From Neptuniibacter pectenicola (GTDB taxonomy: Bacteria > Pseudomonadota > Gammaproteobacteria > Pseudomonadales > Balneatricaceae), in the NCBI RefSeq assembly GCF_001597735.1, contig NZ_LUTS01000004.1, positions 186,001 to 250,000 of the forward strand: DNA of 64,000 nt, written 5' to 3'. Shown piece after piece: positions 12,656 through 36,707 of the stretch (positions are counted from its first letter, which is position 1; each line of letters starts with the position of its first letter). The notes beneath the pieces are model-generated. The model did no database searches, was not told where the DNA came from, and saw nothing but the letters and a program-made list of their open reading frames with translations. Position numbers and translations under genes: made by a program.

Positions 12656-14149
12656 ATGACACCAGAACAGTTCGCGGAACTGTCCGCACAGAATTTCAAT
12701 CGTATCCCTGTCACGCGTGAAGTATTAGCTGACTTAGATACGCCTTTATCGACGTACAAAAAATTAGCGAATGCGCCTTATAGTTACCTGCTTGAGTCTG
12801 TGGAAGGGGGGGAGACTTGGGGGCGTTATTCCATAATTGGATTGCCGAGCCGAACGATCTTAAAAGTTTTTGGTAATAAGGTATCTATATTTGAAGAGGG
12901 GGTTTTGGTTGAAAGCCATGATGTAGAAGACCCGCTGGACTTCGTTGAACGCTTTCAGGCGCGTTACCGTGTTCCCGAAATTGAGGGGCTTCCTCGTTTT
13001 AATGGCGGGCTCGTTGGTTATTTTGGTTACGATTGTGTTCGTTATGTAGAAAAGCGCTTAAAAGATAGCTGTCCTGAAGATGTGCTTGGTACGCCTGATA
13101 TTCTGTTGATGGTTTCGGATGAGGTGGTTGTATTTGATAACCTTGCTGGCAAATTGGTGTTGATTTGTCATGGTGATCCTGCAGATGCTGATGCATATGA
13201 AAAAGCGCAAAAACGCCTTGATACACTTGTGCTCCAGTTAAGGTCTACAACGCCTTATGATGAAAAGCCTGTTGAGCAGCAAAGGGTTGTCAGCGAAGCT
13301 GAATTTAAATCGAGCTTTGGTGAGCAAGCGTTTATCGAAGCGGTGGATAAAATTAAAGAGTATGTTTTAGATGGCGACATTATGCAATGTGTCATCTCCC
13401 AGCGTATGTCGATTCCCTTTAGTAGCAAGCCGCTTGATCTGTATCGCGCATTGCGTTGCCTTAACCCCTCTCCTTATATGTATGTGCTCAACCTGGATGA
13501 TTTTCATGTGGTTGGGTCATCACCTGAAATCCTTGCGCGTGTAGAGGATGGTCAGGTAAGCGTACGCCCTATTGCTGGGACACGTAAACGTGGTTTGACG
13601 CCAGAAGAAGACCTAGCGATGGAAAAAGAGCTGCTGGCTGATCCAAAAGAGATTGCTGAACACTTGATGCTCATTGATTTAGGGCGAAATGATGTGGGGC
13701 GTGTTGCTGAAATTGGGGCTGTAGAGCTGACCGATAAAATGGTGGTTGAGCGTTACTCCCATGTGATGCATATCGTATCTAACGTGAACGCAAAGCTGAA
13801 GCCTGATGTGTCTGCTATGGATGTTTTGCGTGCAACTTTACCGGCTGGTACGTTGAGCGGAGCACCTAAAGTGCGTGCTATGGAGATCATTGATGAGATG
13901 GAATCGGTTAAGCGCGGGGTCTACGGCGGTGCGGTAGGTTACCTTTCTTGGAATGGCAATATGGATACGGCTATCGCGATTAGAACGGCGGTTATCAAAG
14001 ATAATATATTGCATATTCAAGCGGGTGCTGGCGTTGTGGCTGATTCGATTCCTCGTTTGGAGTGGAAGGAGACGATGAATAAGGGGCGCGCGATCTTTAG
14101 TGCTGTTGCCATGGTTGAGCGAGGGCTGGATAATTTGGCCAGTTCGTAA
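12656..14149 (+). CDS. trpE: TrpE, anthranilate synthase component I
   Basis: Chorismate-utilising subunit of anthranilate synthase, working with TrpG to make anthranilate for tryptophan synthesis. The 497-aa protein has the N-terminal LLES element (residues 45-48) typical of Trp-feedback-sensitive enzymes. The chorismate-binding domain follows, with [23 protein letters not shown]-like sequence, [24 protein letters not shown] and [13 protein letters not shown]. Its partner trpG lies 24 kb downstream, with a biosynthetic cluster in between. A terminator follows trpE closely, so trpE is transcribed separately from both the cluster and trpGDC. Confidence 0.97.
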
Positions 14150-14720: not shown

Positions 14721-17700
14721 ATGAACGAATTCAAGAAATTTGTATACACTCCAGCGGGCTATAATGATGCTTCGTTGGCGATTGCGGCATGCAGAGCTGG
14801 AGGTATAGGGATATTAAACGCAGAATTAAGTGCTGATTCTGACAAATTACTTGAGCAGTTCGCGCTTCTCTCTGTTCATGCGCGAAACCCCTTCGGTATC
14901 AAAGTTGATACCCCTCAAAAAGCGCTTCTTAGTGCTGCTGCAGCTAGCGTAGACCAAGGCTTTAGTTACCTTATTGTTGATGAGTTAGTACTCGCTTCGC
15001 TTGCAACCGAGATTAAGCGGCTGCGTAAATTAGGTGTAACCGTTTTAGTTGAGGTAACTAACGCTCATACCGATGCCGCTACGCTTGAGAAACAAGTAGA
15101 TGGCTTGATGGTTAAAGGTCATGAAGCTGGTGGCTTTGTTGGTGAAGGCAGTAGCTTTATCTTGCTGCAAAAATGGTCTGCAAAAACGGGCCTTCCGCTT
15201 TTTGTTCGCGGTGGTATTACTCCCCATGTTGCGGCTGCCTGTAGTGCTGTTGGTGCAAAAGGCGGCGTGCTAGAAAGCCAAGTCTTACTGTTAAAGGATT
15301 CACCGCTATCTGAACGCTTATCCTCGTTTATTGGTAATTTGTCGGGTAATGAGACAATAGCAGTAGGTGATGAAGAGCTGGGCGCCTATTTTAGAGTATT
15401 GGTTCGTCCCGGTTATCGAGAAGCACAAGTATTTAACAACAACGTGTCAGGACGCTTAGTTAATCCAGAAGATGTATTAGGTAAAATAGATTGGGATGCA
15501 CCTCAAAAAGGTTTGTTGCCTTTGGGACAAGATGTCTGTTTTGCTAAAGCTTGGCGTGAAAAGTATGGATATCTCTCCAATGTTTTTGCTGCTATAGATC
15601 AGACCATTCATGACTCTATGCAAGCTGCTATTCAATATAAACCGCTTGCTGAGAATGCGCCCTTAGCTGAAGCGTTAGGTGTTCGCTTTCCGCTTGTTCA
15701 GGGGCCGATGAGCCGTGTATCTGATAGTGCAGAATTTGCTGGGGCTGTGGCCGATGGCGGGGCACTGCCTATGCTGGCTTTTGCTCTGTTGAAAGGCGCT
15801 GCCTTAGATAAGTTGTTGGCTGAAACGGATAAGCGCCTAGGTGATAAGCCTTGGGGGATTGGGTTGTTGGGTTTTGCGCCACAGTCTTTATTGGATGAAC
15901 AGATTGAGCTTGCGCAAAAGTACAAGCCTCAGTACGCCATTATTGCGGGTGGTCGACCTGACCAGGCAGTCAAATTGGAGCAGGAAGGTATTCAGTCTTT
16001 CTTGCATGTGCCATCGGCGAATCTTATACCGCTTTTCCTACAAGAAGGCGCACGCCGCTTTATCTTTGAAGGGCGCGAGTGTGGTGGGCATATCGGGCCT
16101 TTGAGTAGCTTTGTTTTATGGAGCTCAATGGTTGATCGGCTGCTTGAGGAGTTGGAGTCGGGTAAAACTAAAGGCGAAGGTATTCAGCTGTTATTCGCCG
16201 GTGGGATTCATGATGCGGCGTCTGCTGCGATGGTTCAGGTGTTAGCTGCCCCCTTGTTGGATAAAGGTGTCCAGGTGGGCGCATTAATGGGCAGTAGTTA
16301 TCTTTTCACCAAAGAGATCGTTGAGTCCGGCGCAATTGTTCCGGCGTTCCAGAAAGAAGTGGTTGAGTGTGAACACACGGTAAGCTTGGAGTCAGGTCCA
16401 GGCCATGCGAGTCGCTGTGCTTATACGCCTTTTGCTAAGATGTTTTTTGATAAACGTCGCGAAATGATAGAGCAAGGCGTGCCAGTAGATGAGGCGCGCG
16501 CTACCTTAGATGACCTGATTATGGGGCGTCTCCGTATCGCCTCTAAAGGGTGTGCTCGCCTTGGTGAAAATGCCAAATTGACGGCGTTAGATGAGGCAAC
16601 GCAGCATGCTGATGGTATGTATATGTTGGGTCAAGTTGCCACTTTGCGTACTGAGCTGATTGATGTTGAAACGCTGCACGCTCAAGTAACCGAAGACAGT
16701 CATGCATTATTGGTCGCTAACTCAATGGATTCCGCTCAGGAAGATGAGGCTGATTCGTCGCCTGTCGATATAGCCATTGTTGGTATTTCTGGCTTATTTC
16801 CGGGTGCAAATTCTACCGAAGAGTACTGGTCTAATATTTTAGACAAAGTTGATGCGATTACTGAGATTCCATCCCATCGTTGGGATTGGCGTTTATATTT
16901 TGATGAAGATCGTTACTCTAAAGATAAAATCTACTCTCGCTGGGGTGGATTTATTGATGACTTAGCATTTGATCCAACTAAATATGGTATGCCGCCTAAA
17001 TCTGTAGAAGCTGTAGATCCAATGCAGTTGATGGCGTTGGAAGTGGCATCGAGAACGCTGGCGGATGCCGGCTATGATAAACGGGATTTTGATCGTGAAA
17101 ATGCCTCTGTCATTATTGGGGCTAGTGGGGGTGCCGGTGACGTGGGCATGCAGTATGGTTTGCGTGCTGAAATGCCACGTTTCAAAGGTGACTTGCCTGA
17201 TCATATAGCGGATATTTTGCCGGAATGGACGGAAGACTCATTCGCTGGGATATTGATCAATGTTATGGCAGGTCGTATCGCTAATAGGTTGAATTTTGGT
17301 GGCGTTAATTTCACGACAGATGCGGCCTGTGCCTCCTCTTTAGCTGCTATTTATCAAGGCATTTCTGAGCTTTCTGCTGGACGTAGCAATATGGTGTTGG
17401 CGGGTGGTGTAGATACCGTTCAAGGCCCATTCGGTTATCTTTGTTTTAGTAAAACTCAGGCCCTTTCTCCGCGTGGTCGTTGCAGCACCTTTGATGTGTC
17501 AGGGGATGGCATTGTGATTTCAGAGGGGATTGCGATGGTCGCTATGAAACGCCTTGCTGATGCAGAGCGGGATGGTGATCAGGTCTATGCTGTTATAAAA
17601 GGCGTGGGTGGTAGTAGTGATGGTAAGGCTAAAGGTTTAACCGCACCATTACCTCAAGGTCAGCTTAGGGCTATGCGTCGTGCTTATAAACAAGCAGGCT

Positions 17701-20700
17701 TTGGTCCTGAAACAGTAGGTTTATTTGAGGCGCATGGTACAGGGACTGTGGCGGGTGATACTGCTGAGCTGGAAAGTACCATTAGTCTACTAAAAGAGGC
17801 TGGCGCTGGGACGCATCAAGCGGTGGTAGGCTCTGTTAAAACAATGATTGGTCACACGAAAGCTGCGGCGGGTGTGGCGGGTCTTATTAAAGCCTGTTTA
17901 GCGTTAAAGCATCAGACTCTTCCGCCTCATTATGGGGTAACTCAGCCGAATAATGTATTAATGGGCGAAGATTGCCCACTTTACCTTGTGGATGAAGCTC
18001 AGCCTTGGATAAAGAAAGAGCAACCACGACGTGCGGCCTGTAGTGCTTTTGGTTTTGGCGGCACAAACTTTCATGTGGTTATGGAAGAGTATCAGGGTGA
18101 ATATAGACCGTGGATGAAGAAGGCTGTACGCACCCAAGGGCCTGCTGAACTCCTTATTTGGAGTGAAGATACGACAGAGGCGTTAATTGCTACATTGTCG
18201 AATGTGGCAAAAGAGTTAACATCAGTTGCTGCGTTAGACCTTAAAAAACTCTCATTCAATCTGATTAATAAGCATAAATCGGGTCTTGAAACCGTTACTC
18301 TGGTTGTTAGAGATCAAGCAGATTTTGCTGAAAAGGTGGTTGCAACATTGGGCTACCTGAAAGATGAAATTTCCGCGTTACCTGAAGGTGCATATTACGG
18401 GAATGGGCAGAAAGCCGACGGTAAGGTTGCTGCTATTTTTCCCGGACAAGGTGCGCAGTATCCACAAATGGGGCGTGAGTTAGCTTACACCTATTCTACT
18501 GTGGGTAATGCTCTGTCAGACGCAGATAAGTTATTGAAAGCCCCTTTCGAGAAAAGGTTTGCTGGACGTTCACTAAGCGACTTCATCTATCCGCGAGGTG
18601 CTTATACGCCTGAACAGAAAACTGCGGCGACTCAAGCGTTAACAAGTACAGATGTGACTCAACCCGCATTGGGCGCAGTGGAAACGGGTTTGTGGCGTAT
18701 GCTGAAAACCTTAGGTTTTAAAGCGGATATGTTTGCGGGTCACAGTTATGGTGAGTTTGTAGCTTTACATGCAGCTGGGGCATTTGATTATGAAACCTTA
18801 GTCTCTTTGTCGGAGGCACGAGGCCGCTTTATTGTTGATGAAGCGAAGCGTGCCGGTGATGAGCTAGGTACAATGGCCGCAGTGCAAGCGACGCGGGATA
18901 AAGTTGAAACTGCTATTAAGCAGATCGACGGTGTCATCGTTGCAAATCATAATGCGCCTACGCAGTGTATTATTTCTGGTTCTAAGGCGGGCATCGCTCA
19001 AGCGATCGAAGCGTTGTCTCAAGCCGATATAATGGCGACTCCAATTCCGGTTGCAGCGGCGTTTCATTCCTCATTCGTCAAACCCGCTCAATCTCATTTA
19101 GCTAAATTGATCGAGAGCACTAAGTGGATATCACCTGAACTGCCTGTTTATTCTAACAGTACGGGCGATGTGCATGATGCAAGCGTTGCAAAGCTGAAAT
19201 CATCGATGGCTGCTCACTTGGTCAACCCAGTTGAATTTGTGGCTGAAATTGAAGCTATGTACCGTGACGGTGCGCGCATATTTGTTGAAGTAGGGCCTAA
19301 ATCCATACTATCTCGCTTAACCAAGCAAATACTGGGTGATCGTCCGCATACAACTATTACTTTGGATAACGATCAGGAAGGTGTTTACGGGCTATTAAGC
19401 GCGCTTGCTAATTTAGTTTGCGAAGGTGTAGAGCTTGATTTGCAGCCGTTGTTAGCCGGGATTCAGAGTGAATTAGTCTCGTCGAATGGGCTTGAAAATT
19501 ATGACAGTGCCGCGCCCATTTCTAAACAGACCTGGATGCTTAATGGCAGTGGTGCGAGGCGTGCGACTGAAGCAGTTCGACAGATTGGGGTAACGCTTGA
19601 GCAAGTGTTAGCGCAAAACAGTGTAGCCGCTGAGGCTTCAAGTGCAGGAAGCGTTATGACGACGGTTCCTTCTCCGCAAATAAACGAAAATATTTCTTAC
19701 GATAGACATCATTTTAAGCATAACAAGGAGCGAAAGATGGATGGGCGCAGGCAAGCACCAAATGCTGGTGGTCCGGCAGTAATGGCAGAATACTTTGATA
19801 TGATGCGTCAATTCCTGGAAAGTCAGGAAAGTGTTATGTCAATGTATTTAAGTGGTACTCCGGTACCGCGTTCAGGTGAAACGCGACCACAGCGTCTCCC
19901 TAAAACGGCCCCTCAAATGGCTGAGTTATCAATGGGAGTTCCTGTTGTTGCGGCACCCGTCGCTGCGCCTGTAGTAGCCCCAGTCGCTGCTCCAGCCCCA
20001 GCGCCCGTTGCTGTTGCTCCTGTTGCGGCTCCCGCGCCAGCACCAGTGGCTGCTCCAGTAGCTGAAGCTAAACCGGCCACAGATGATGCATTTGATCGTG
20101 AAAAAATCACGCAGATGTTGTTGGACATCGTGGAAGACAAAACCGGCTACCCGAGCGATATGGTCGGCTTAGATCAGAAGTTAGAAGCCGATTTGGGTAT
20201 CGATTCGATAAAACGTATCGAGATTGTTGGTTCCTTATTAAAGGCACTTCCAGCGGCTTACGGTGATGCATTAGGCGAAAATCGAGGTCAGTTGAATACA
20301 CAAGAAAATCTGACAGGTATGTTAGATCTTTTATGTGATTTGCCAGTAGGAGCGGCGACAAGCCCTTTTAAAGTAGCCGGGGTGAGAGCAGAGGTTTCGA
20401 GTACATTATCGGACTCCTCATTCCGGCATGTAGTAGTACCTTCGCCTGCTCCTATAGAGGTGAATGCTAAACGTGCGCTGAATATTGGGCACTATGTTAT
20501 TACTCGAGATGCAGCAGATATCGCAGGTAAATTAGCGGCGCTGCTGACTGATCGAGGATGTACCGTACAGATTGTTGAGCCGTCGGTTCTTGAGGATGAA
20601 GAACAGATTCTCAAATTTTCTGCTGCGGTTTGCGCAGAAAAAGCCGATCTCGCCGGTGTTATTCACTTGGCTGAGATCGGCAGCCCTGCCTTGATGAGTG

Positions 20701-22883
20701 AAAGCTCAGTTGTGGATTTTAAAGCGGTACTGAATAGTAATGAGAAGTCATTTTTTCTCTTACTTAAAGGACTAAGTCCCGCGTTCTCTGATGCTGCACA
20801 TATTGTTGCTGCCAGTGGGCTCGGGGGAGCATTTGGCCGTACAAATGCGGTTTTTAATGGCTTATCTCTACAGTCCGGTTTCGTCGGTTGCTTAAAATCA
20901 GTATCGGAAGAGCGTCCTGCTCTAAGAGTTAAAGCTATTGACCTAGATGCTGAACAGTCTGTAGGTGATTTGGCAAATATTTTACTCGAAGAGATGATGC
21001 TGTGCGGCGGCCGTCAAGAGGTAGGCTACCCTGCAGGTAAGCGTACAATATTTAAAACGGTTGCCGAAGTGGCTCCGCAGCCGGCAGAAAATGCGACATT
21101 GGACGGTTTGACTGTACTGGCTACAGGCGGCCTACGAGGCATTACGGCTGAAGTTCTACGCGAAGTGGCGTTACCCGGTAATACATTGCTGTTAACGGGG
21201 CGCAGTCCTTTGCCAGAACCTGAAACGGCTGAAACGGCCGCACTGAAAACTGAAGCAGAGCTGAGACAGTTCTTTATAGCTCAAGTACGTGATGGCATTT
21301 TGTCACTGACACCGGCTGAAGTTATGAAAAAAGTCGCAGGTGTGATCGGTGCTCGCGAGATGTTGAGTAATCTTCAGGATTTCCAACAGCGGGGTGCGAA
21401 GGTTGAGTATTTTGCTGTTGATGTAACTGATGAAAGCTCCATGAAAGGGCTTTTGGATACGATCTACGATAAATACGGTGCGCTACATGGCGTTGTTCAT
21501 GGCGCGGGTATTATTGAAGATAAACTTTTACAAGATAAAACAAGTGAGAGCTGGTCTCGTGTTGTGGAGACTAAAGTACTTGGGCTTTTTCATATTCAAA
21601 AGTATGTGCGCCCTGAGTCTTTACGCTTTTTGACAGTCTTTAGCTCAGTGGCTGGCCGATACGGCAATAGTGGACAGTTGGATTACGCTACAGCGAATGA
21701 GTTACTAAATCGTTTGTGTAGTCAGCTTAATCAGCTATGGAAAAATAAAGTGGTTGTCCGTTCGCTTTGCTGGGGGCCTTGGGGGCCTACACAGTTTGGT
21801 GAGGGTATGGTAACCGCTGAGACCGAAGCAAAATTTGCAGAAAAAGGCGTTGCGTTGGTAACCGCAAAAGCGGGCCGAGATGTATTCCGTGAAGAGATAT
21901 TACAACAGCCATCTGAAAATATTGAAGTGATCTGCGGTATTGGTCCTTGGGAGAAGCATGAAGCAACGATTGGTCGTGTTGAGTTTGATGAAAGTATCCC
22001 ACGTATAACCGGTGCGCTACTCGATAATGCACGTGTGACTGCGATGCCAAAAGGTGATCAGGTTGTTGAATTTTATCTGAGCGATCGGCATGAATACCTA
22101 CAACAGCACCGTATCGATAATATCCCTGTGTTACCTGCTGCGGTTGCGTTGGAGATAATGTCCGAAACAGTGACAGCGCTTTGGCCAGGATGGCATGTGG
22201 TAGAAGCGCGGGATAGTCGTTTACTTAAAGGTTTGCAACTGGATGACCTTAATCAGAAGTTAAAAGTAGTTGTAAACCCACCGCCTTATGGTAGCAGTGA
22301 CGGTTTTGATGTGACTGTGAGCCTGCAGTCCGAAAAACGGATGCACTACAAAGCGGTGTTACGTTTAGAACAAACGTATCCTGAAAGCTTCACGTATGAG
22401 CCTGAAAAACATTCAGATAAGCAGCTTTCTGTTGAGACGGCTTATAACGAATGGCTGTTTCATGGGCCTTGTTTTCAGGTGATAAAGAAAATTGCTGGTT
22501 TATCTCAGCAGGGTTCGGTTTCTGATGTTGAAACGAGCACCCCAGCGGGATGGTTAAGCACAGTAATGGTCGACGATGGTTGGGTGTTTGATCCTGCTAT
22601 GACCGATGCGGCTGCCCAAATGGCTCTTCTTTGGGGTCGCACGTTTAATGATCAGTCTGCTTTGCCAGCGCGTTTTGGGAAAGTGATGAAATTCCAAGAG
22701 AAACTACCTGAAAAGCTCAGGATGTGCTTTGCACGTAAAGAAAGTGAACAACCCAACACGATTGTCTCTGATGTTTATTTTGTTGATGAGAAAAATAATG
22801 TTGCACTGTTAATTGAAGACCTTGAATGTATTTCTAGCATGGAACTGAACCGTTTAGGCGGAACAGAAAAACTTGCCCTTTGA
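14721..22883 (+). CDS. PUFA-synthase-like megasynthase: enoyl-reductase-like tandem, KS, AT, ACP, KR, DH
   Basis: A 2720-aa iterative lipid/polyketide synthase. Domains: two flavin-dependent nitronate-monooxygenase/PfaD-like barrels (about 1-240 with GHEAGG, and 320-585 with EGRECGGHIGP); KS (about 683-1120, catalytic Cys870, His1005, His1045); AT (about 1235-1550, Ser1342 in GHSYGE and an AFHS motif typical of malonyl loading). An Ala/Pro linker leads to one ACP (Ser1829 in LGIDSIKRIEI, the sequence style of Pfa carrier domains). KR (about 1910-2420, TGGLRGIT, Tyr2322, Asn2326) and a C-terminal double-hotdog DH (about 2437-2710, HRIDNIPVLP and DAAAQ) follow. RBS-like AGGCAGGG precedes the ATG. 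It resembles PfaD fused to PfaA, but with a single ACP. The product is unknown. Confidence 0.9.
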   Translation: MNEFKKFVYTPAGYNDASLAIAACRAGGIGILNAELSADSDKLLEQFALLSVHARNPFGIKVDTPQKALLSAAAASVDQGFSYLIVDELVLASLATEIKRLRKLGVTVLVEVTNAHTDAATLEKQVDGLMVKGHEAGGFVGEGSSFILLQKWSAKTGLPLFVRGGITPHVAAACSAVGAKGGVLESQVLLLKDSPLSERLSSFIGNLSGNETIAVGDEELGAYFRVLVRPGYREAQVFNNNVSGRLVNPEDVLGKIDWDAPQKGLLPLGQDVCFAKAWREKYGYLSNVFAAIDQTIHDSMQAAIQYKPLAENAPLAEALGVRFPLVQGPMSRVSDSAEFAGAVADGGALPMLAFALLKGAALDKLLAETDKRLGDKPWGIGLLGFAPQSLLDEQIELAQKYKPQYAIIAGGRPDQAVKLEQEGIQSFLHVPSANLIPLFLQEGARRFIFEGRECGGHIGPLSSFVLWSSMVDRLLEELESGKTKGEGIQLLFAGGIHDAASAAMVQVLAAPLLDKGVQVGALMGSSYLFTKEIVESGAIVPAFQKEVVECEHTVSLESGPGHASRCAYTPFAKMFFDKRREMIEQGVPVDEARATLDDLIMGRLRIASKGCARLGENAKLTALDEATQHADGMYMLGQVATLRTELIDVETLHAQVTEDSHALLVANSMDSAQEDEADSSPVDIAIVGISGLFPGANSTEEYWSNILDKVDAITEIPSHRWDWRLYFDEDRYSKDKIYSRWGGFIDDLAFDPTKYGMPPKSVEAVDPMQLMALEVASRTLADAGYDKRDFDRENASVIIGASGGAGDVGMQYGLRAEMPRFKGDLPDHIADILPEWTEDSFAGILINVMAGRIANRLNFGGVNFTTDAACASSLAAIYQGISELSAGRSNMVLAGGVDTVQGPFGYLCFSKTQALSPRGRCSTFDVSGDGIVISEGIAMVAMKRLADAERDGDQVYAVIKGVGGSSDGKAKGLTAPLPQGQLRAMRRAYKQAGFGPETVGLFEAHGTGTVAGDTAELESTISLLKEAGAGTHQAVVGSVKTMIGHTKAAAGVAGLIKACLALKHQTLPPHYGVTQPNNVLMGEDCPLYLVDEAQPWIKKEQPRRAACSAFGFGGTNFHVVMEEYQGEYRPWMKKAVRTQGPAELLIWSEDTTEALIATLSNVAKELTSVAALDLKKLSFNLINKHKSGLETVTLVVRDQADFAEKVVATLGYLKDEISALPEGAYYGNGQKADGKVAAIFPGQGAQYPQMGRELAYTYSTVGNALSDADKLLKAPFEKRFAGRSLSDFIYPRGAYTPEQKTAATQALTSTDVTQPALGAVETGLWRMLKTLGFKADMFAGHSYGEFVALHAAGAFDYETLVSLSEARGRFIVDEAKRAGDELGTMAAVQATRDKVETAIKQIDGVIVANHNAPTQCIISGSKAGIAQAIEALSQADIMATPIPVAAAFHSSFVKPAQSHLAKLIESTKWISPELPVYSNSTGDVHDASVAKLKSSMAAHLVNPVEFVAEIEAMYRDGARIFVEVGPKSILSRLTKQILGDRPHTTITLDNDQEGVYGLLSALANLVCEGVELDLQPLLAGIQSELVSSNGLENYDSAAPISKQTWMLNGSGARRATEAVRQIGVTLEQVLAQNSVAAEASSAGSVMTTVPSPQINENISYDRHHFKHNKERKMDGRRQAPNAGGPAVMAEYFDMMRQFLESQESVMSMYLSGTPVPRSGETRPQRLPKTAPQMAELSMGVPVVAAPVAAPVVAPVAAPAPAPVAVAPVAAPAPAPVAAPVAEAKPATDDAFDREKITQMLLDIVEDKTGYPSDMVGLDQKLEADLGIDSIKRIEIVGSLLKALPAAYGDALGENRGQLNTQENLTGMLDLLCDLPVGAATSPFKVAGVRAEVSSTLSDSSFRHVVVPSPAPIEVNAKRALNIGHYVITRDAADIAGKLAALLTDRGCTVQIVEPSVLEDEEQILKFSAAVCAEKADLAGVIHLAEIGSPALMSESSVVDFKAVLNSNEKSFFLLLKGLSPAFSDAAHIVAASGLGGAFGRTNAVFNGLSLQSGFVGCLKSVSEERPALRVKAIDLDAEQSVGDLANILLEEMMLCGGRQEVGYPAGKRTIFKTVAEVAPQPAENATLDGLTVLATGGLRGITAEVLREVALPGNTLLLTGRSPLPEPETAETAALKTEAELRQFFIAQVRDGILSLTPAEVMKKVAGVIGAREMLSNLQDFQQRGAKVEYFAVDVTDESSMKGLLDTIYDKYGALHGVVHGAGIIEDKLLQDKTSESWSRVVETKVLGLFHIQKYVRPESLRFLTVFSSVAGRYGNSGQLDYATANELLNRLCSQLNQLWKNKVVVRSLCWGPWGPTQFGEGMVTAETEAKFAEKGVALVTAKAGRDVFREEILQQPSENIEVICGIGPWEKHEATIGRVEFDESIPRITGALLDNARVTAMPKGDQVVEFYLSDRHEYLQQHRIDNIPVLPAAVALEIMSETVTALWPGWHVVEARDSRLLKGLQLDDLNQKLKVVVNPPPYGSSDGFDVTVSLQSEKRMHYKAVLRLEQTYPESFTYEPEKHSDKQLSVETAYNEWLFHGPCFQVIKKIAGLSQQGSVSDVETSTPAGWLSTVMVDDGWVFDPAMTDAAAQMALLWGRTFNDQSALPARFGKVMKFQEKLPEKLRMCFARKESEQPNTIVSDVYFVDEKNNVALLIEDLECISSMELNRLGGTEKLAL

Positions 22884-22908
22884 GTGGTAGTTAAGGACGG
22901 AATCAGTA

Positions 22909-25900
22909 GTGAAGAGTAAAAGTGAAAGCTCAGAACCTATTGCTATAATAGGTATGGCCTGTGTGTTTCCAGAAGCGCCGGATCTTAAAACGTTTTGGCA
23001 AAATATAATCCAGTGCGTTGATGCTGTTGGTGAGCCTCAAGCCGCATGGGAAGCTGAACGTTATTTAGAATCAGGTCGTATTAATACTCCCTATGGTGGT
23101 TACTTAAAGGACCTCTTCCGTTTTGACCCCCGAGAGTTTGGTATTATGCCAAACTCAGTCGATGGCGGAGAGCCAGACCAGTTCTTGGCGTTACGTGTTG
23201 CTCGAGACGCGTTGCTTGATGCAGGGTATTTGGGTGATGAGCATGATCATACTGATACGGGTATTATTCTAGGGCATAGTACGTACCTTCATAGAGGACA
23301 AGGAAACCATGTACAGCACCATATTGTGCTGGATCAAACCATGGAAATTCTTGCTGCGGTTTCGCCATCCTTATCGGACGACAAACTTGCTCAAATCCGT
23401 AAACTACTGACCGACAAATTGCCACAATCCAATGCGGATATTGCTGCAGGCCTTGTGCCTAACGTGATGACTGGGCGCATAGCAAATCGCTTAAATCTCA
23501 GAGGGCCGAATTATATTCTTGATGCGGCCTGTTCTTCTTCCTTACTTGCGGTAGGTGCCGCAATGGATGAGTTACGTAATCATCGCAGTAACCTCATGCT
23601 TGCTGGCGGTGTTAATGCATCATTACCGGCTGAAGTGTCTGTTATTTTTACACAGCTAGGTGCATTGAGTGAGCGGGGTAAAGTCCGTCCATTTTCTAAA
23701 GGCAGTGATGGAACGCTATTGGGCGAGGGCTTGGGTACGGTTGTACTTAAACGCTTATCTGATGCTGAAGCCGACGGCGATAAAATTTATGCCGTTATTC
23801 GAGGTATTGGGCAAGCGAGTGATGGCCGTGGACATGGACTATTAGCACCGAGTGTGGAAGGTGAAGCGTTAGCTATTCAGCGCGCGTATCAAGACAGTGG
23901 TGTAGACCCTTCAACTATAGGCCTTATCGAAGCGCATGGTACAGGTATTCCGCTTGGGGATCAGACTGAAGTATCGGCTTTGGGTTCAGTGCTCGGTGAG
24001 CGCAAAGGCCCATTAGGCAGTGTTGCTTTGGGTTCTGTGAAATCGATGATTAGTCATTGTATTCCCGCTGCAGGCATTGCTGGCTTAATAAAAACGTCAT
24101 TGGCGTTACATCATAAAGTATTACCGCCAACGCTATGTGACGAAGTTAATCCAGATTTGGCGATCGAGAAAACGCCGCTTTATGTGAATACCGCTTTGCG
24201 CCCTTGGTTTACCTCAAAAGAAAACCCTCGTCGTGCGGGAGTTAACTCGTTTGGTTTTGGTGGTATTAATACCCACGCGATTTTGGAAGAAGCGCCGTCA
24301 CAAGCCAATAAACCTTTATATTACAGTACGCGCCCAGCCGAGCTTTTTGCATTGTCAGCGGCCTCTAAGGACGCCTTGGTTGATAAAATTCGTCAATTAC
24401 AGCCGCTCGCTGATGCTCAAAATTACACAATTGCAGAAATAGCCGCTGAAGTTTGTCGTCAAGATACTGCAGAAGCCCAGCGTATTGCTTTTGTTGTAAA
24501 AGATCATGCTGATCTGACGAAGAAACTGGCTCAAGCGCTTAAAAAGTTAGAAACGGATAAAAAGGGGCGCTGGTCCACACGTAATGGTGTAGTTTTTAGT
24601 GATCAGCCTTTATCAGGGAAATTGGCCTTTATCTTTCCGGGAGAAGGCTCGCAATACCTGAGTATGCTCGAAGAGTTATCTTTAAACTTCCCAGAAGTGC
24701 GTGGTTGGTTTGATTTTTGGCGTGGCCTATATGGTGATGATCAGCAAGGCAGTAGCCGAACCGATTTGGTTTTTCCGCCAGAAATAGAATTAACGCCAGA
24801 GATTAAAAAGGCTTTAGAGCTACGGTTACATGATATGGATATTGGCTCTGAAGCCGTATTTGTTGGTAGCCAAGCGATGAATGGTTTACTCAAAGCCTTT
24901 GGTGTAGAGCCTGATGCAATGTTAGGCCATAGCACCGGAGAGTCCTCGGCACTCGTCGCATCTGGAGCTATTGATAATACCGATCTTGATCAGTTAGCTA
25001 AGTTTATTCGTGAACTTAATTTAGTGTATCAGCAAGTATTGGAAAGCGGCGGTATTCATACAGGCGCGTTGTTGACGGTTGGGGCATTGGAACCTGCTGT
25101 TATTGATCAGCATATTGCGAAGCTCTCATCTACTGTTTATGTGGCGATGGATAATTGCGCTAACCAGAAAGTTCTATTTGGTGATAAAGAAGCGATCGCG
25201 AGCCTACAAAAATCTTTAAGTGAGGCGGGTGGTATTTGTGTGCCATTACCGTTCGACCGTGGCTACCACACACCTTTCTTTTCGGCCGTGACGGACGCAT
25301 TTCAGCAGTACTATGCGGATGTGGGTGTTAAAGCGCCTAAACTGCCACTTTACTCTTGTGCATCGGCGGGTCTTTTTCCAACGAAGCAAGCAGACGTTGT
25401 TAATTTGGCCGCAAGTCAGTGGTCAAAAACCGTTCGTTTTGCTGAGACAGTTACTGCGATGCATGATGATGGGATCCAATATTTTATCGAAGTTGGGCCT
25501 TCAGGGAACCTTACTGCGTTTGTAAATGAAATATTGGCGGATAAAGAGTATCTCTCTGTCGCAAGTAATATTCGTAAGAAAAGCAGTGTCGAGCAGTTTT
25601 TACTCGTGCTTGGACAGTTATATGTAAACCAGAAAACGGTTGATATCGAACGGTTATTTGTTGATAGAGCGTTAGACTCGGTTGATTTGAATAGTAATGT
25701 GCATCGTCGGGCATCGGGTATGCTGCTCGATAATACGATGCCGGTCTTGCATTTAACGGATGACGATCGAACACTTTTACAGACAATGGCGCCTGTTAAT
25801 TATGATGCAGCGCCTGTTGTCAGGAATGATGCGCCGGTTCAGCCAGCAGGTTCAGAACCTGCTGTTCAAGAATCAGCCGTGCTTGATGCTGAGATGGAAA

Positions 25901-27687
25901 GTACGAATGCTGCCAGTGATGCTGTCATGGCCGATTATTTTGATTTGATGCGTGGCTTTTTGTCGCAACAAGAAACATTATTCTCCTCGTCTGTTCTGTC
26001 TGAATCTCAGGTGGAGGCAGACACTGAATACGCTGAAGCAACGCCTTTCCCGTTTCTGAGTGACATCCTTGAACATACGGAGCAGCACTTACGTGCCCGT
26101 TGTGAGCTGAATGTCTATCAAGACAAATTTTTACAAGATCACATTTTATCGGGTACTGTCTCAGAGCATGACTCAGCGCGTATGGGTTTATCCTGTGTGC
26201 CGATGATGGTCAGCCTTGAAATTATGGCTGAAGCTGTTGCTGCACTGACAGGTAATGTTGCGATAACAACGATTGAAAATGTTAAATCATACGATTGGAT
26301 TGCATTGGATGATATGTCTATTGAATTGGATGTATCCGCGCAGGCCCTTGATGGCGATAACGGGCGCTTTAGTGCCGCTATTCATAGTCAGGGCGCGTTG
26401 ATTGTTGAAGCTGAGCTTACCTTAGGGGCCGCAATGACTCAGCCTCGCCTACCTGATTTAGGCGCGGCTAATGGGTACCGTTGGGGTAATGATGAGCTTT
26501 ACAGTACGGGCATGTTCCATGGCCCTATTTTTCAAAGCATGCAAGGCATCGATGGCTGGAATGATCAAGGTATTGATGCATCGCTCAGTACTGTTAGTTT
26601 GCAAGGCTTTTTTACTGAGGGCGAACGTGCCAACCTAGTGCTCAATCCGGTTTTATTGGATGCCCTAGGTCAGTTAGCGGCGTATTGGATTGCGCAACAA
26701 GTTGGTACCGATTTCAATAGTTTCCCTTCTGCTATAGAAAAAATAGAGTTTCCCGTTACCTGTCCACAGGCCCTACCGGAACTGCGGTTACGTGGGCGTC
26801 AGCACCCCGTTGATCCGAAAACGACCTCTGTTGAGAGTCCTCGCGCATGGCAGTTTGAGTGTGTTGATGGCAACGGACAGGTGTTATTAAGTGCCCGTAA
26901 CTTAGTGAATATCTTTTTCCCGGTTCCTAACCGTTTTTACAATGTTAGGCGGGACCCTTTGAATGGCTGGTTAGGGGCGGGATCGGTCATCTCGGATACG
27001 GATGTACTCTTATGGCAGGTTCCACACTTTGATGAAGCATTCTGCGCTCAGTCAGGTGGTGTATTTATGCGAATATTAGCTCACATCTTACTCAGCTATG
27101 ATGAGCTAAATGAGTGGCGCGCACTGACAGGAAACGTTCGTCATAAACGTCAGTGGTTACTTGGGCGGGGAGCGTTGAAAGAAGCGGTGCGTTACTGGAT
27201 TTATCAACAAACCTCCACCTTATTATACCCAGCTGACATTGAGATTGTTCATGATGAGCTAGGGGCTCCTTATGTGACCGGTTGGTGGGTTGATAGCTTG
27301 ATTCCTGCACCTGCTGTGTCGTTAAGCCATGATAATCAACAGTGTGTTGCGGCGGTGTCAGCAAGCTATGCATCGATTGGTTTAGATATAGAACAGCAAG
27401 TCAGTGATAAAGATTATGACTTTTTACTCGGGGCTTTATCCACGACAGAAACGGCTGTATTACAGCAGATGCCGGCACAAACTAAACATGATTATTTACT
27501 CCGTACTTGGTGCGCTAAAGAGGCAGCCGCTAAGTGCTTGCGCACAGGCCTGCAAGGCCAACCGGAACTGTTTGAAGTCTCATTTCTTGATCAGAGCTTA
27601 GTACAGGCGACTGTCAATTATCAGGGGCATATAGTCGCGATTAAGTTGTTGACCAATGATGGTCTGATTACGGCATTGGCTGTTTAA
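22909..27687 (+). CDS. Second megasynthase subunit: KS, AT, DH and C-terminal phosphopantetheinyl transferase
   Basis: A 1592-aa partner of the preceding synthase, started by GTG behind AAGGACGG and 25 bp after it. Domains: KS (about 7-455, Cys208 in DAACSSSL, His343, His383); AT (about 560-860, Ser675 in GHSTGESSA, with GYHTPFF replacing the AFHS motif); a linker with VMADYFDLMRGFL; a double-hotdog DH (about 1040-1330, DALGQ motif); and an Sfp-type phosphopantetheinyl transferase (about 1380-1592, GLDIE at 1491-1495 and WCAKEAAAK from 1534). No ACP is present, so its KS and DH must act on a carrier elsewhere, most simply the upstream one. It combines functions that PUFA systems place on PfaC, PfaB and PfaE. 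Confidence 0.9.
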   Translation: MKSKSESSEPIAIIGMACVFPEAPDLKTFWQNIIQCVDAVGEPQAAWEAERYLESGRINTPYGGYLKDLFRFDPREFGIMPNSVDGGEPDQFLALRVARDALLDAGYLGDEHDHTDTGIILGHSTYLHRGQGNHVQHHIVLDQTMEILAAVSPSLSDDKLAQIRKLLTDKLPQSNADIAAGLVPNVMTGRIANRLNLRGPNYILDAACSSSLLAVGAAMDELRNHRSNLMLAGGVNASLPAEVSVIFTQLGALSERGKVRPFSKGSDGTLLGEGLGTVVLKRLSDAEADGDKIYAVIRGIGQASDGRGHGLLAPSVEGEALAIQRAYQDSGVDPSTIGLIEAHGTGIPLGDQTEVSALGSVLGERKGPLGSVALGSVKSMISHCIPAAGIAGLIKTSLALHHKVLPPTLCDEVNPDLAIEKTPLYVNTALRPWFTSKENPRRAGVNSFGFGGINTHAILEEAPSQANKPLYYSTRPAELFALSAASKDALVDKIRQLQPLADAQNYTIAEIAAEVCRQDTAEAQRIAFVVKDHADLTKKLAQALKKLETDKKGRWSTRNGVVFSDQPLSGKLAFIFPGEGSQYLSMLEELSLNFPEVRGWFDFWRGLYGDDQQGSSRTDLVFPPEIELTPEIKKALELRLHDMDIGSEAVFVGSQAMNGLLKAFGVEPDAMLGHSTGESSALVASGAIDNTDLDQLAKFIRELNLVYQQVLESGGIHTGALLTVGALEPAVIDQHIAKLSSTVYVAMDNCANQKVLFGDKEAIASLQKSLSEAGGICVPLPFDRGYHTPFFSAVTDAFQQYYADVGVKAPKLPLYSCASAGLFPTKQADVVNLAASQWSKTVRFAETVTAMHDDGIQYFIEVGPSGNLTAFVNEILADKEYLSVASNIRKKSSVEQFLLVLGQLYVNQKTVDIERLFVDRALDSVDLNSNVHRRASGMLLDNTMPVLHLTDDDRTLLQTMAPVNYDAAPVVRNDAPVQPAGSEPAVQESAVLDAEMESTNAASDAVMADYFDLMRGFLSQQETLFSSSVLSESQVEADTEYAEATPFPFLSDILEHTEQHLRARCELNVYQDKFLQDHILSGTVSEHDSARMGLSCVPMMVSLEIMAEAVAALTGNVAITTIENVKSYDWIALDDMSIELDVSAQALDGDNGRFSAAIHSQGALIVEAELTLGAAMTQPRLPDLGAANGYRWGNDELYSTGMFHGPIFQSMQGIDGWNDQGIDASLSTVSLQGFFTEGERANLVLNPVLLDALGQLAAYWIAQQVGTDFNSFPSAIEKIEFPVTCPQALPELRLRGRQHPVDPKTTSVESPRAWQFECVDGNGQVLLSARNLVNIFFPVPNRFYNVRRDPLNGWLGAGSVISDTDVLLWQVPHFDEAFCAQSGGVFMRILAHILLSYDELNEWRALTGNVRHKRQWLLGRGALKEAVRYWIYQQTSTLLYPADIEIVHDELGAPYVTGWWVDSLIPAPAVSLSHDNQQCVAAVSASYASIGLDIEQQVSDKDYDFLLGALSTTETAVLQQMPAQTKHDYLLRTWCAKEAAAKCLRTGLQGQPELFEVSFLDQSLVQATVNYQGHIVAIKLLTNDGLITALAV

Positions 27688-27738: not shown

Positions 27739-28803
27739 ATGCCAGCAGTTGAGGTAAATGGCACTAAGATAAACTACCTGCAGTTGGATAGTGATGCAGG
27801 GCCAGATGCTGAGCATTTGGTAATGGTACATGGCCTCGCTACAAATATGGCCTTTTGGTATATCCGCCATGCGCCTGAATTTGCCAAACGTTATAAAGTT
27901 ACGTTATTTGATTTGCGCGGTCATGGCCGTTCGCGTGTAACTGAGGATGGTTATACGCCGGCAAATATGGCTGCTGATATGTTGGGTTTGATGGACCATC
28001 TGGCTATACCTAAAGCGCATGTAATGGCACACAGTTTTGGTGGTGTTGTCGCCTTGAACTTTGCTTGTAATGCGCCTGAACGGGTTGAAAGCTTAATGCT
28101 GATTGACTCGCACATTAGCGCAATACGGAAGCTAGAGACTGTAGAAGGTTGGGATTATGGCGATAAATTACAAGTGTTGCTTCATGATCAGGGTATCGAT
28201 ATTAATGTAAAAGAGCCCTATTTTGGCTATCGCCTTTTAGCGGAAGTCGCCCTGTTACAAGAGCAAAAAATTGAGATATCACCCGAACTAAAAGAAATTG
28301 TTACGCCGATTGTTGGTAACTATGGAAATCGTACCGCTAAATTGTGGTTGAAGTTACTGAACACTACCGCTGCTGAAAAAGAGTTGATGGGGGATGATGG
28401 TTTGGCACTTGATATGCTAAAACAGCTTAAGTTTCCTATTTTGGCGGTTTATGGTGAGCACTCTCAGTCGATGTTAACGGGCCGGCATTTGCTGGAAGTA
28501 TGGCCCCATGCGGATTTCAGAAAAATGCTACGTGCAGGACATTTTTTTCCTACGACGCGCCCAGATGAACTAATTTCAACATGTGAGCAATTTTGGCATG
28601 GTGCAATGGTGTCCGGCGTGAGTATAAGAGATGGTGATAATAAGCGCCATTTCCGTAGTGAGCGTTTTGAACAACGGGACGATGGTTGGTATTTTTCTAC
28701 TAGGGATGGTGAAGAGGGACCTTTTGAAACAGTTGAATCTGCTCAGGAAATGTTGTCTTTTTATATTACTCAAGTCAAAGATAGTAAGGTGGCTCAAGCG
28801 TGA
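27739..28803 (+). CDS. Alpha/beta hydrolase with small C-terminal DUF6316-like domain
   Basis: A 354-aa cytoplasmic hydrolase. It has the oxyanion-hole VHGLATN region, DLRGHGRS, the nucleophile elbow AHSFGG with Ser99, and a late AGHFFPTTRP segment supplying the His. After residue 295 there is a separate module around ERFEQRDDGWYFSTRDGEEG followed by PFETVESAQEML. This pattern resembles the small standalone DUF6316 proteins of marine gammaproteobacteria (recognised by eye). The gene sits 51 bp after the megasynthase and overlaps the next gene by 4 bases. A thioesterase-like role in releasing the acyl product is the simplest inference. No signal peptide is visible. Confidence 0.8.
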   Translation: MPAVEVNGTKINYLQLDSDAGPDAEHLVMVHGLATNMAFWYIRHAPEFAKRYKVTLFDLRGHGRSRVTEDGYTPANMAADMLGLMDHLAIPKAHVMAHSFGGVVALNFACNAPERVESLMLIDSHISAIRKLETVEGWDYGDKLQVLLHDQGIDINVKEPYFGYRLLAEVALLQEQKIEISPELKEIVTPIVGNYGNRTAKLWLKLLNTTAAEKELMGDDGLALDMLKQLKFPILAVYGEHSQSMLTGRHLLEVWPHADFRKMLRAGHFFPTTRPDELISTCEQFWHGAMVSGVSIRDGDNKRHFRSERFEQRDDGWYFSTRDGEEGPFETVESAQEMLSFYITQVKDSKVAQA

Positions 28804-30248
28804 AAGCTAACCGGTTGGGTATTCATAAAGGCAACAAAGCAACCGATTTTAAATTAATCGCTAAAGGTGGCTTTGGCGATGGGGTGAATGCGTATGCTCA
28901 TTCGATGGCATGGTTTAATGGCTATTTATATGTTGCGACTACGCGGGGTAACTTCCCCTTAATGAAGGCGCGCTTGCCTATAGGTTTAAATCCGTGGCCA
29001 GTTGAATGTCCTGAAAACCCATTTGATCTTGATCTTCATGCTGAGATTTGGCGTTTCGATCCTCGTGAAGAGAGTTGGGAGCGTGTCTTTAAGGCGCCAA
29101 GTATTATTGGCAGTCATGGAAAACCTATACCGCGCGAGTTGGGGTATAGGGGTATGTTGGTTTACCGGCCTGAGAACGGTGATGATCCTGTTTTATTAGT
29201 CAGTACATGGTCGCCGGCCAAAGGTCCAGGTCCTCTTATTTTAATGTCCCGTGACGGTCGGACGTTCGAGCCTTCATGTGAACCCGGTTTGATCGGTCTT
29301 CCTGTAACGACTATTAGAACGATGGCTCAGTTTAAAGGACGTTTATATACCACGCCTGCAGGTTCAAGGGGCGGTAACCCAAACGTTTCAGCCCACTCCA
29401 TCGTGTATGAAAGCAAAGACCCAACCAAAGGTGGCTGGGAGCCTGTCAGTGATTTTGGTTTTGGCGACCCTGGTAATAAAACGGTTTTTGAAATGGCCGC
29501 TTTTGGCGATCATTTATATGTAGGTACTTTCAATTTGGAAGGGTTTCAAATTTGGCGTACCGATGCTGAAGGTGAAGCCCCATATCACTGGGAACGGGTG
29601 ATTGAGAAAGGCGCTTATCGTGGTGCTTTTAATCAGAGCGTATTAAGCATGTACCCTTTTAAAGGGGCGCTTTATGTCGGTGGTGCGATTCAAGGTGGCG
29701 GTATTGATAGGCAAAATAAAATAGGCCCTGCGCCACCAGAGCTGATTCGTATCTTCCCAGACGGTGATTGGGATCTCTTAGTGGGTGAAGCAAGGGATAC
29801 GCCTGATGGCTTTAAAGCGCCGTTATCAGGTTACTTGCCGGGCTTTGATAACTTTTTTAACGGTTATTTTTGGCGCATGTGTGAACATGATGGTTGGTTA
29901 TATGTCTCCACGTTTGATTGGAGTACCATCATTGGGTATGCGCAACAGAGTACTTGGCCTGAGGCATTTAAAAATATTGTCGGTGAACTTGGTGCTCAAT
30001 TTGTTATGGACCATCATGGAGGTTGCGACCTATATCGAAGTTATGATGGCGAGAACTGGGTACCTGTTACAACGAGTGGGATGGGTAATCCATATAATAT
30101 TGGTATGCGTACCATGGCGTCTACGCCTTATGGCTTTTTCATTGGTACCGCTAACCCATTTGGTCCAAAAGTAATACCAATCGGTGGGGATCGTTATATC
30201 CCTAACCCCAGAGGCGGCTGTGAAGTCTTTTTCGCGCCTGATGTTTAA
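28800..30248 (+). CDS. Unrecognised beta-propeller-like protein of the lipid cluster
   Basis: I do not recognise a characterised family. The 482-aa protein begins with GTG overlapping the stop of the hydrolase (GTGA). It has no signal peptide or membrane segment. Repeated blade-like units recur: MAWFNGYLYVATTRG, EIWRFDPREESWERVF, MAAFGDHLYVGTFNLEGF, QIWRTDAEGEAPYHWERV, MYPFKGALYVGGAI and CEHDGWLYVSTFDW. This hydrophobic-LYVGT-then-W spacing is what kelch/YncE-like propellers show. The C-terminal half has the conserved-looking DHHGGCDLYRSYDGENWVP and NPFGPKVIP. Its location among synthase and tailoring genes suggests an enzyme or scaffold for the product, but no catalytic motif can be named. 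Confidence 0.7.
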   Translation: MKANRLGIHKGNKATDFKLIAKGGFGDGVNAYAHSMAWFNGYLYVATTRGNFPLMKARLPIGLNPWPVECPENPFDLDLHAEIWRFDPREESWERVFKAPSIIGSHGKPIPRELGYRGMLVYRPENGDDPVLLVSTWSPAKGPGPLILMSRDGRTFEPSCEPGLIGLPVTTIRTMAQFKGRLYTTPAGSRGGNPNVSAHSIVYESKDPTKGGWEPVSDFGFGDPGNKTVFEMAAFGDHLYVGTFNLEGFQIWRTDAEGEAPYHWERVIEKGAYRGAFNQSVLSMYPFKGALYVGGAIQGGGIDRQNKIGPAPPELIRIFPDGDWDLLVGEARDTPDGFKAPLSGYLPGFDNFFNGYFWRMCEHDGWLYVSTFDWSTIIGYAQQSTWPEAFKNIVGELGAQFVMDHHGGCDLYRSYDGENWVPVTTSGMGNPYNIGMRTMASTPYGFFIGTANPFGPKVIPIGGDRYIPNPRGGCEVFFAPDV

Positions 30249-32829: not shown

Positions 32830-33738
32830 ATGGCAGCTCCACTGTTTTTATTAGCACCACCGAGATCGTATACATCACTGATCAATGCAATGATTGGTCA
32901 GCACCCCGAAGCGTTCGGTTTGCCGGAATTGAATCTGTTCAATGTTCAGCAGACCAAGGACCTTTGGCGAAATGTATCTGATGATATCGGAGACGATAAC
33001 AACCGCAGACAAGGTTTGCTTCGTGCTGTAGCAGAGATATATGCCGGCGAGCAAACCCGTGATGCAGTTGTTATGGCTCAACACTGGGCATCGGCCCGTG
33101 AAAACATGATGACGGGTGATGTGTTTGTTGAGCTTGTGAACAAAATTGATCCATTGATCGCCGTGGAAAAAAGCCCTGCTTATACGATCTCAGTCGATCG
33201 TATGAAGCGTATTTATGAGGCCTTTCCAGATGCTAAGTTTATCCACTTAGTGCGGCACCCTATACCGCAAAGTAAATCGGTTATGGGTTTGAATGATGGT
33301 ATCTTTGCGCTGTTTGTTAATGCGATTGATTTCCAAGCGGAGCGAGCCATTCTAGACCCACAGATTGCGTGGCATGATATTAATATCAACATTTTAAACT
33401 TTTTAGATATTGTGCCTGCTGAAAACCAAATGCGTATTCGTGGTGAATTAATAATGGAGAATCCCCGTGAAGAGCTAGCCGGAATTTGTCGTTGGTTAGG
33501 TATACGCGATGATGAAGAAGCGGTGGATGATATGATGCATCCAGAAGCCTCCCCATTCGCCTGTTTTGGTCCGGTTAATGCCCTGTTTGGGAATGATCCT
33601 AACTTTCTTCGTGGCTCCAAATTTCGCCCACATAAGCCAAGGCTTCCTGCGATGGATGCAGAACTACCTTGGCGAGATGACGGTAAGCGATTACGGCCTG
33701 AAGTTGTTGCTCTGGCGAGAGAGTTTGGGTACGAATGA
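32830..33738 (+). CDS. Sulfotransferase-family protein
   Basis: A 302-aa P-loop-like sulfotransferase, the class that moves sulfate from PAPS to hydroxyl groups. The N-terminal PAPS 5'-phosphosulfate loop is APPRSYTSLINAMI (PRSGST-like with Tyr for Gly). EKSPAY follows, and the 3'-phosphate site region is KFIHLVRHPIPQSKSVMG. There is no signal peptide, so it acts in the cytoplasm. It is one of two sulfotransferases in this operon; the other, at 36708-38006, is fused to a carrier protein and has a canonical loop. The substituted loop may indicate altered activity. The acceptor is probably the megasynthase product or an acyl-ACP, by inference. Confidence 0.82.
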   Translation: MAAPLFLLAPPRSYTSLINAMIGQHPEAFGLPELNLFNVQQTKDLWRNVSDDIGDDNNRRQGLLRAVAEIYAGEQTRDAVVMAQHWASARENMMTGDVFVELVNKIDPLIAVEKSPAYTISVDRMKRIYEAFPDAKFIHLVRHPIPQSKSVMGLNDGIFALFVNAIDFQAERAILDPQIAWHDININILNFLDIVPAENQMRIRGELIMENPREELAGICRWLGIRDDEEAVDDMMHPEASPFACFGPVNALFGNDPNFLRGSKFRPHKPRLPAMDAELPWRDDGKRLRPEVVALAREFGYE

Positions 33739-33763: not shown

Positions 33764-34183
33764 GTGAGCCAAGATAGCGAAACGAATAAACCGGGAAGCA
33801 GAAAAGGTATTGGCCAAGTTACGACTGAACCCAAAAGTATAAAGTCTGAACCACCAGAGCTTACGCCACAACAGCAGGCGTTACGTCAGGCGGTAATTAC
33901 TGAGTTCAGATCGAAAAAAATTAAAGCATTTGTTGCGAAGCAAGTTAAGCACATTAATGCGAATCGGCAAGTAGCTGATGGTATTCGCTTTCTATTTGAT
34001 GAAAATGGACTGCCACCGGCAAACGCGCCTTTGGAAGATATTATTTCAGAGCGCAAAAAAATCGAGTCTGAAATCCGCTGGTTTGAAGCGATGGCAAACG
34101 AGATGCGTGGCCGTTTAGTGCAGATTAAAGAGATTGAAGAACTTGCGTTAGAAATGATTGAAAATCCACCGGCAGATGAATAG
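33764..34183 (+). CDS. Small helical protein of the lipid cluster, unknown function
   Basis: A 139-aa soluble protein with a GTG start, 25 bp after the sulfotransferase and 13 bp before the esterase. The first 40 residues are polar and likely disordered (Lys, Ser, Pro rich). The rest is predicted by eye to be helical, with a possible coiled coil around ISERKKIESEIRWFEAMANE. I recognise no family. Its position in the middle of a tightly packed operon argues that it is a real gene and serves the cluster, perhaps as an accessory or scaffold protein. Confidence 0.65.
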   Translation: MSQDSETNKPGSRKGIGQVTTEPKSIKSEPPELTPQQQALRQAVITEFRSKKIKAFVAKQVKHINANRQVADGIRFLFDENGLPPANAPLEDIISERKKIESEIRWFEAMANEMRGRLVQIKEIEELALEMIENPPADE

Positions 34184-36651: not shown

Positions 36652-36707
36652 CTATTCGTTAAAAATTTAAATTGTAATCCGGTCATGGAATATTGAAGGT
36701 TTTTCAG

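Follow-up and report, generated by a model that had tools for sequence, protein, structure and literature searches.

Here we report that a co-directional gene block between trpE and trpG of Neptuniibacter pectenicola probably encodes a two-protein iterative fatty-acid synthase of the ArsA type, rather than the PfaABCD type, which feeds a sulfation and export pathway. The window analysed is a 64,000-nucleotide stretch of contig NZ_LUTS01000004.1 (positions 186,001 to 250,000, forward strand), and all coordinates below refer to it unless a locus is named. The evidence lies in the sequence itself: the domain content and motifs, the kinship of the ketosynthase (KS) to the ArsA clade and of the sulfotransferases (STs) to known enzymes, and the position within trp. 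The locus, until now taken for a PUFA-like enzyme without a match, can be placed in a branch of the ArsA-type family that lends itself to testing, and its predicted product is a long-chain lipid bearing sulfate or, alternatively, a 1-alkene. To our knowledge, this would be the first case in which an ArsA-type synthase is joined by an exporter and a carrier-linked sulfotransferase.

Architecture of the two synthase proteins

The synthase is encoded by two intact open reading frames (ORFs), with the following domains:

14721..22883, + strand: PKS1, ArsA-like synthase NMO1-NMO2-KS-AT-ACP-KR-DH, 2720 aa (ORF, Pfam/NCBIfam, homologues, KS trees)
14721..15620, + strand: NMO1, FabK-type unit in which GGF replaces GGH and the motif His is missing (alignment; FabK model 48 bits, cut-off 453)
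15633..16700, + strand: NMO2, FabK-type enoyl reductase-like unit with the GGH motif (alignment; FabK model)
16755..18095, + strand: KS of PKS1, Cys in 16/16 rows, EAHGTGT and GHTK present (Pfam, alignment)
18423..19364, + strand: AT of PKS1, GHSYG and AFHS (Pfam, alignment)
20103..20306, + strand: single ACP of PKS1, LGIDSIK (Pfam, alignment)
21093..21800, + strand: KR of PKS1, GGxxGI and S..Y...N present (Pfam, alignment)
22008..22856, + strand: C-terminal PS-DH of PKS1, His and Asp motifs present (Pfam, alignment)
22909..27687, + strand: PKS2, KS-AT-DH-PPT, 1592 aa, GTG start (ORF, Pfam/NCBIfam, alignment)
27070..27678, + strand: PPTase domain of PKS2, motifs LGAP (P1a) and VSLSH (P1b'), without P0 (Pfam)

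Both ORFs of the original prediction were upheld, and so by Pfam were its domain orders, with NMO, KS, AT, one PP-binding domain, KR and DH on PKS1, and KS, AT, DH and an ACPS-type transferase on PKS2; the last, at the C-terminus (E 2.4e-14), bears out the PfaE-like transferase that had been placed at the end of the KS-AT-DH protein. KS and AT motifs are intact in both proteins, and the AFHS motif in the AT of PKS1 is presumably a mark of malonyl specificity. With its own PPTase and with KR, DH and ER-type domains, the pair is, as proposed, a self-contained Pfa-related iterative synthase. The active Cys is aligned in all 16 first-KS rows and in 13 of 16 second-protein rows, the three rows without a KS at this site being the Rhodobacteraceae, Beijerinckia and Methylosinus partners. 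Only a subset of first proteins carries the C-terminal DH, whose His motif is seen in 6 of 16 rows. The PPTase fits the class of Types M-T, with P1b' (hShxH) as VSLSH and P1a (x(G/D)xP) as LGAP, and neither P0 nor P1b, both of which were looked for, is present in it; these motif definitions are those given in the available part of PMC3098273.

The reductase at the front of PKS1, previously described as PfaD-like, is better described as tandem FabK-type. The first 660 residues comprise two FabK/NMO-type units, which the FabK model matches weakly (48 bits for NMO1 and 66 bits for NMO2, against a cut-off of 453). Neither unit matches the PfaD model TIGR02814 at E<=0.01, while a real PfaD used as positive control (from genome G220) scores 613.9 bits, which rules out a PfaD identity. 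The front of the Beijerinckia ArsA-like protein shows the same FabK pattern and likewise gives no PfaD match. Across the 16-row alignment the His of the GGH motif is kept in NMO2 in every row and is found in NMO1 in none of the 15 rows with letters at that site, PKS1 included (the sixteenth row is a gap), and NMO1 is probably a non-catalytic partner.

The claim of a single ACP holds for PKS1, by Pfam, but not for the locus, where a second carrier-like domain (36693 to ~36992) is fused to a sulfotransferase. Nor need a single ACP imply a different product, as had been suggested: ACP number changes PUFA yield without changes of profile in the available part of PMC5067506.

Ketosynthase kinship and relatives of the same design

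The KS of PKS1 groups with the Beijerinckia ArsA-like protein in two trees: in the first, of 59 rows, their clade has 17 rows (support 100/98), and in the second the clade is kept at 100/97. For the second tree five rows were taken out, namely the second Streptomyces pair, two from Desulfococcus and G035b, and four were added, including an enediyne row and an ST-TE PKS row. Eight PfaA-type rows form a clade of their own that excludes the PKS1 KS (100/100 in the first tree, 100/99 in the second); this clade is sister to the ArsA clade at 98/96 and, more weakly, at 94/64. The single KS of PKS2, with its Cys present, lies in another clade (17 rows and 96/99 in the first tree, 95/94 in the second), apart from PfaC-KS and CLF rows in both trees. 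The one enediyne row, from a locus so annotated, lies outside the ArsA and PfaA clades, on a branch 2.25 long with weak support. Photobacterium GJ3, Tolypothrix, Streptomyces globosus and Azospirillum (matched ORF of 1755 aa) were left out of the trees; the Photobacterium GJ3 matches fall in modular-type ORFs. Judged by these trees, the PKS1 KS is kin of the ArsA clade ("Type P", ars-type). The original prediction had named clustering with a characterised family as grounds for rejecting it, and such clustering is seen, but through a Beijerinckia homologue of the characterised ArsA and not with ArsA itself.

In the available parts of the sources, Azotobacter ArsA makes C23-C25 chains, with ArsD as PPTase (PMC4824345), ArsA chains are given as C22-26 (PMC3098273), and Beijerinckia indica ATCC 9039 is named as a Type P organism (PMC3098273). 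On B. indica pBIND02 an ArsA-like gene is followed by two genes of KAS III C-terminal type and then by a DH-PPT protein, which we infer to correspond to arsA-D, reading the KAS III-type pair as type III PKSs. Taken to represent the Type P ArsA/ArsD of Azotobacter, pBIND02 shares with our block the tandem FabK-type front with its first His lost, the KS-AT-ACP-KR core, a KS in one clade and a DH-PPT partner; it differs in having two ACPs, the KAS III-type pair between, a partner without KS-AT, and no ST in the part of the annotation that is shown. Type III PKS genes were sought beside PKS1 and PKS2, and since none is found among the nine ORFs of at least 150 aa from trpE to trpG, we do not file the block as an ars cluster.

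The architecture had been considered unmatched, a view that no longer holds. In the available text of PMC13291983, a fused pfaDA gene and a pfaBC gene with PPTase are compared to the system of Renibacterium salmoninarum (Type M in the available part of PMC3098273), and the ER-KS-AT-ACP-KR front matches the Beijerinckia ArsA-like protein. As far as that text goes, the fused pfaDA and pfaBC-PPTase systems (Renibacterium, Aquimarina TRL1 and Flavobacterium N502540) share with the block a fused reductase-KS protein and a PPTase-bearing second protein; those of Aquimarina TRL1 and Flavobacterium N502540 differ in being tied to PKS-NRPS lines (PMC13291983). Two Streptomyces plasmid clusters, L003 and L070, encode NMO-NMO-KS-AT-ACP-KR and KS-AT-DH-PPT proteins (domains mapped in L003 only) and resemble the block further in an alpha/beta hydrolase and a discrete ACP, annotated directly after the PKS2 homologue, but no C-terminal DH was found on their first protein, and a glycosyltransferase and a methyltransferase take the place of the STs.

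Domain mapping shows this two-protein layout also in Streptomyces L003, Obscuribacterales L008, G061 and G101. Variants include second proteins without a DH match (G265), without a PPT match (L010) or without a KS (Rhodobacteraceae), and the first protein of G045 and the second protein of a Clostridiales record are truncated by contig ends. Several phyla have the FabK-fronted synthase together with its KS-AT-DH-PPT partner, with differing tailoring genes beside them. Within the order, P0002 has a match at 1e-100 in 14 of 293 genomes, the host genome counted, several of which are tandem-ACP Pfa-type loci. Three Neptuniibacter records (KS identity 91-98%) hold both synthase genes and the downstream genes through the ACP-ST, at 62-99% identity per domain or gene. 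In one of these, Neptuniibacter marinus (L007:10901-15657), the second synthase gene appears as two overlapping ORFs split within the KS, through a frameshift or sequencing error. The two-protein factory design is not new; what sets this locus apart is its combination with genes for probable sulfation and export in a trp operon. In the open-licence literature we found no title on such a Neptuniibacter polyketide locus and no paper pairing a sulfotransferase with a PUFA-synthase.

Second carrier, sulfotransferases and proposed product

Downstream of PKS2 the block continues with the following genes:

27739..28803, + strand: alpha/beta hydrolase with DUF6316 tail, AHSFGG (Pfam, comparison)
28800..30248, + strand: 482-aa repeat protein (no Pfam match above cut-off)
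30304..32718, + strand: membrane protein with C-terminal HlyD-type adaptor (Pfam; N-terminal part weakly M50-like)
32830..33738, + strand: sulfotransferase ST1, PF13469 (Pfam, comparison)
33764..34183, + strand: 139-aa ORF between ST1 and the esterase (no Pfam match)
34197..35075, + strand: esterase-like protein, apparent signal peptide (by eye)
35134..36651, + strand: TolC/OEP-family outer-membrane protein (Pfam)
36693..38006, + strand: ACP-sulfotransferase didomain (ST2), carrier-like part ~36693-36992 (GFASID), ST part 37128-38000

The carrier domain of the ACP-ST scores 17.8 bits in Pfam, below the cut-off of 20.8, and it likewise stays under the cut-offs of the nine NCBIfam ACP models that it matches (1.5e-5 to 0.0097); stand-alone carriers of 98 aa homologous to it lie directly after PKS2 in G061 and G045. 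Directly after the carrier in G045 there is a PF01663-type protein (L050:12427-14028), with a similar protein by eye in G061 (L049:2624-4234), and none among the ORFs of at least 150 aa in our block. The ST part matches 4gox (labelled 'Polyketide synthase'; E 2.1e-59, 42% identity) and the CurM ST 4gbm (E 5.9e-59, 41% identity), the former of which we take to be an olefin-synthase ST. In a tree of a 14-row ST alignment ST2 groups with two NRPS-embedded STs at modest support (90/91), beside CurM, 4gox and Calothrix, and ST1 forms a separate branch. STs of the CurM/olefin-synthase kind sulfate carrier-bound beta-hydroxyacyl chains, according to the available part of PMC3903477; as ST2 groups with the NRPS-embedded STs and not with CurM/OLS, the hydroxyl may not be beta.

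ST1 and ST2 are the two PF13469 matches of the host genome. Among 274 genomes of the class, a match that reaches into the carrier part of the ACP-ST occurs only in G000 and G316, both of which are also among the three with the 482-aa protein. In G316 a single contig carries both synthases (the first one as two ORFs) along with the 482-aa and HlyD proteins, and a different contig carries the ACP-ST didomain; the ST1 of G316 is divergent. ST2 is not obligatory, since G061, G045 and G854 have the synthases and the carrier but no ST2, their matches being either to the carrier only or, at 26-28%, ST1-like. The usual PAPS motifs are gone from the ST1 of G854, which by these motifs we presume to be degenerate. 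At the G854 locus (L122-L123) both synthases and a carrier are accompanied by a phosphodiesterase-family protein and two copies of the 482-aa family. Three plasmid records match ST2 at 1e-20, all within PKS/NRPS proteins.

Judging from its repeats, the 482-aa protein is probably a beta-propeller, its best Pfam match being Kelch_6 (E 0.022, below cut-off). It is found in 3/274 genomes of the class, 3/349 of the phylum and 4/11 of the genus, the host genome counted in each, and is 94-99% identical to the three Neptuniibacter copies; the family often lies near ST1-like genes in relatives, and the plasmid records hold no relative of it. For the membrane-HlyD protein a transport role is possible, and no ABC or RND partner is found among the nine ORFs of at least 150 aa between trpE and trpG. 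To call it a dead M50 protease would be too strong, given that it has no Pfam peptidase match and scores 37.2 bits against a cut-off of 300 on the M50-like model NF041824; HExxH is absent from the aligned site in 6/6 rows and absent anywhere in 5/6, and the G316 row has one HEDLH at residue 63, distant from the aligned site at 279. The 139-aa ORF is 88-99% identical in the three Neptuniibacter loci and 36% identical over 101 aa in G061.

We infer the following course as the most probable one, from chain length and hydroxyl position through sulfation and the order of steps to release and export. The PKS2 PPTase would activate the carriers, and PKS1 and PKS2 would build the chain from malonyl units on the one ACP of PKS1; with KR, DH and the FabK-type NMO2 acting on it, the chain would become long and mostly reduced, and the last KR step would probably leave it a hydroxyl. 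The chain would then be handed over to the second carrier (36693-36992), whose fused ST would sulfate this hydroxyl, and the alpha/beta hydrolase, the probable chain-release enzyme, would free it; ST1 may sulfate it again, and the HlyD-type membrane protein and TolC would export the product. That these genes form one dedicated long-chain sulfolipid pathway, with an ArsA-type megasynthase, a carrier-sulfotransferase hand-over, membrane-HlyD and TolC export, and the propeller-like protein as a tailoring or chaperone step, we put forward tentatively.

That the locus is a canonical Pfa-type synthase with a polyunsaturated fatty acid as its product is very improbable. The block and PfaABCDE share the KS-AT-ACP-KR core and have sister KS clades, and PKS1 exceeds the cut-off of the NCBIfam PfaA model TIGR02813 (1071.6 against 1010.1 bits, spread over three stretches), with PKS2 under it at 600.7 bits. 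However, the block has no PfaD match at the PKS1 front, no CLF-type domain, no FabA-like DH match in Pfam and no separate PfaB that we could see, its KS lies outside the PfaA clade in both trees, and the ACP is single, also in the Neptuniibacter relatives, where Types A/B have 4-6 in PfaA. An ArsA-type synthase could instead make an unsulfated long-chain lipid, with ST1 and ST2 acting on another molecule or glycan. The absence of ST2 from G061, G045 and G854 would agree with this, as would the glycosyltransferase genes in relatives with the same synthase (Streptomyces by Pfam, G265 by eye), but the fusion of ST2 to a carrier homologous to the one that stands alone after PKS2 in G061 and G045 argues against it, and we regard it as unlikely.

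It is also quite unlikely that the locus is a terminal-olefin pathway, in which ST2 would sulfate a beta-hydroxyacyl chain and the hydrolase would drive decarboxylation and sulfate loss to a long 1-alkene, a mechanism described in the available parts of PMC3903477 and PMC6274090. The likeness to the olefin synthase/CurM termination module lies in an ACP followed by a homologous ST (41-42% identical) and in a hydrolase encoded in the cluster. The block differs from that module in having no fused TE and no AMP-binding (FAAL) loader among the nine ORFs of at least 150 aa from trpE to trpG (Pfam), and ST2 falls outside the CurM/OLS branch. Its hydrolase is distantly like the Calothrix ST-TE thioesterase (28% over 116 residues only, LIDSH against LVEPPLP) and closer to that of G061 (48%, with 33% to that of G316), a genome that shows no ST2. 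A hydrocarbon would have no obvious need of TolC-type export or of a second ST. It was the thioesterase and ST comparisons that led us to rank this route below the sulfolipid reading.

Position within the trp operon

The borders of the block are as follows:

12656..14149, + strand: trpE, left border (Pfam, comparison)
38259..38843, + strand: trpG, right border, followed by trpD and trpC (Pfam, comparison)

Between these genes the co-directional block extends to 38006, and the trpE-trpG gap is 24.1 kb, against 22-65 bp in G606, G258 and G577. Of the other stretches in this comparison of eight from relatives, that of G583 contains the block, in G594 one different ORF separates the two genes, and G589, G596 and G572 show no trpE within the stretch examined. 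From these comparisons, insertion at trpE/trpG would be a simpler reading than loss elsewhere. The GC content of the block (0.453) is close to that of its flanks (0.465 and 0.459), so there is no compositional sign of foreign origin. A border scan found neither promoter-like nor terminator-like sites before trpG; to the left of PKS1 it found five promoter-like sites (mean in shuffles 2.2, sd 1.8) and none resembling a terminator.
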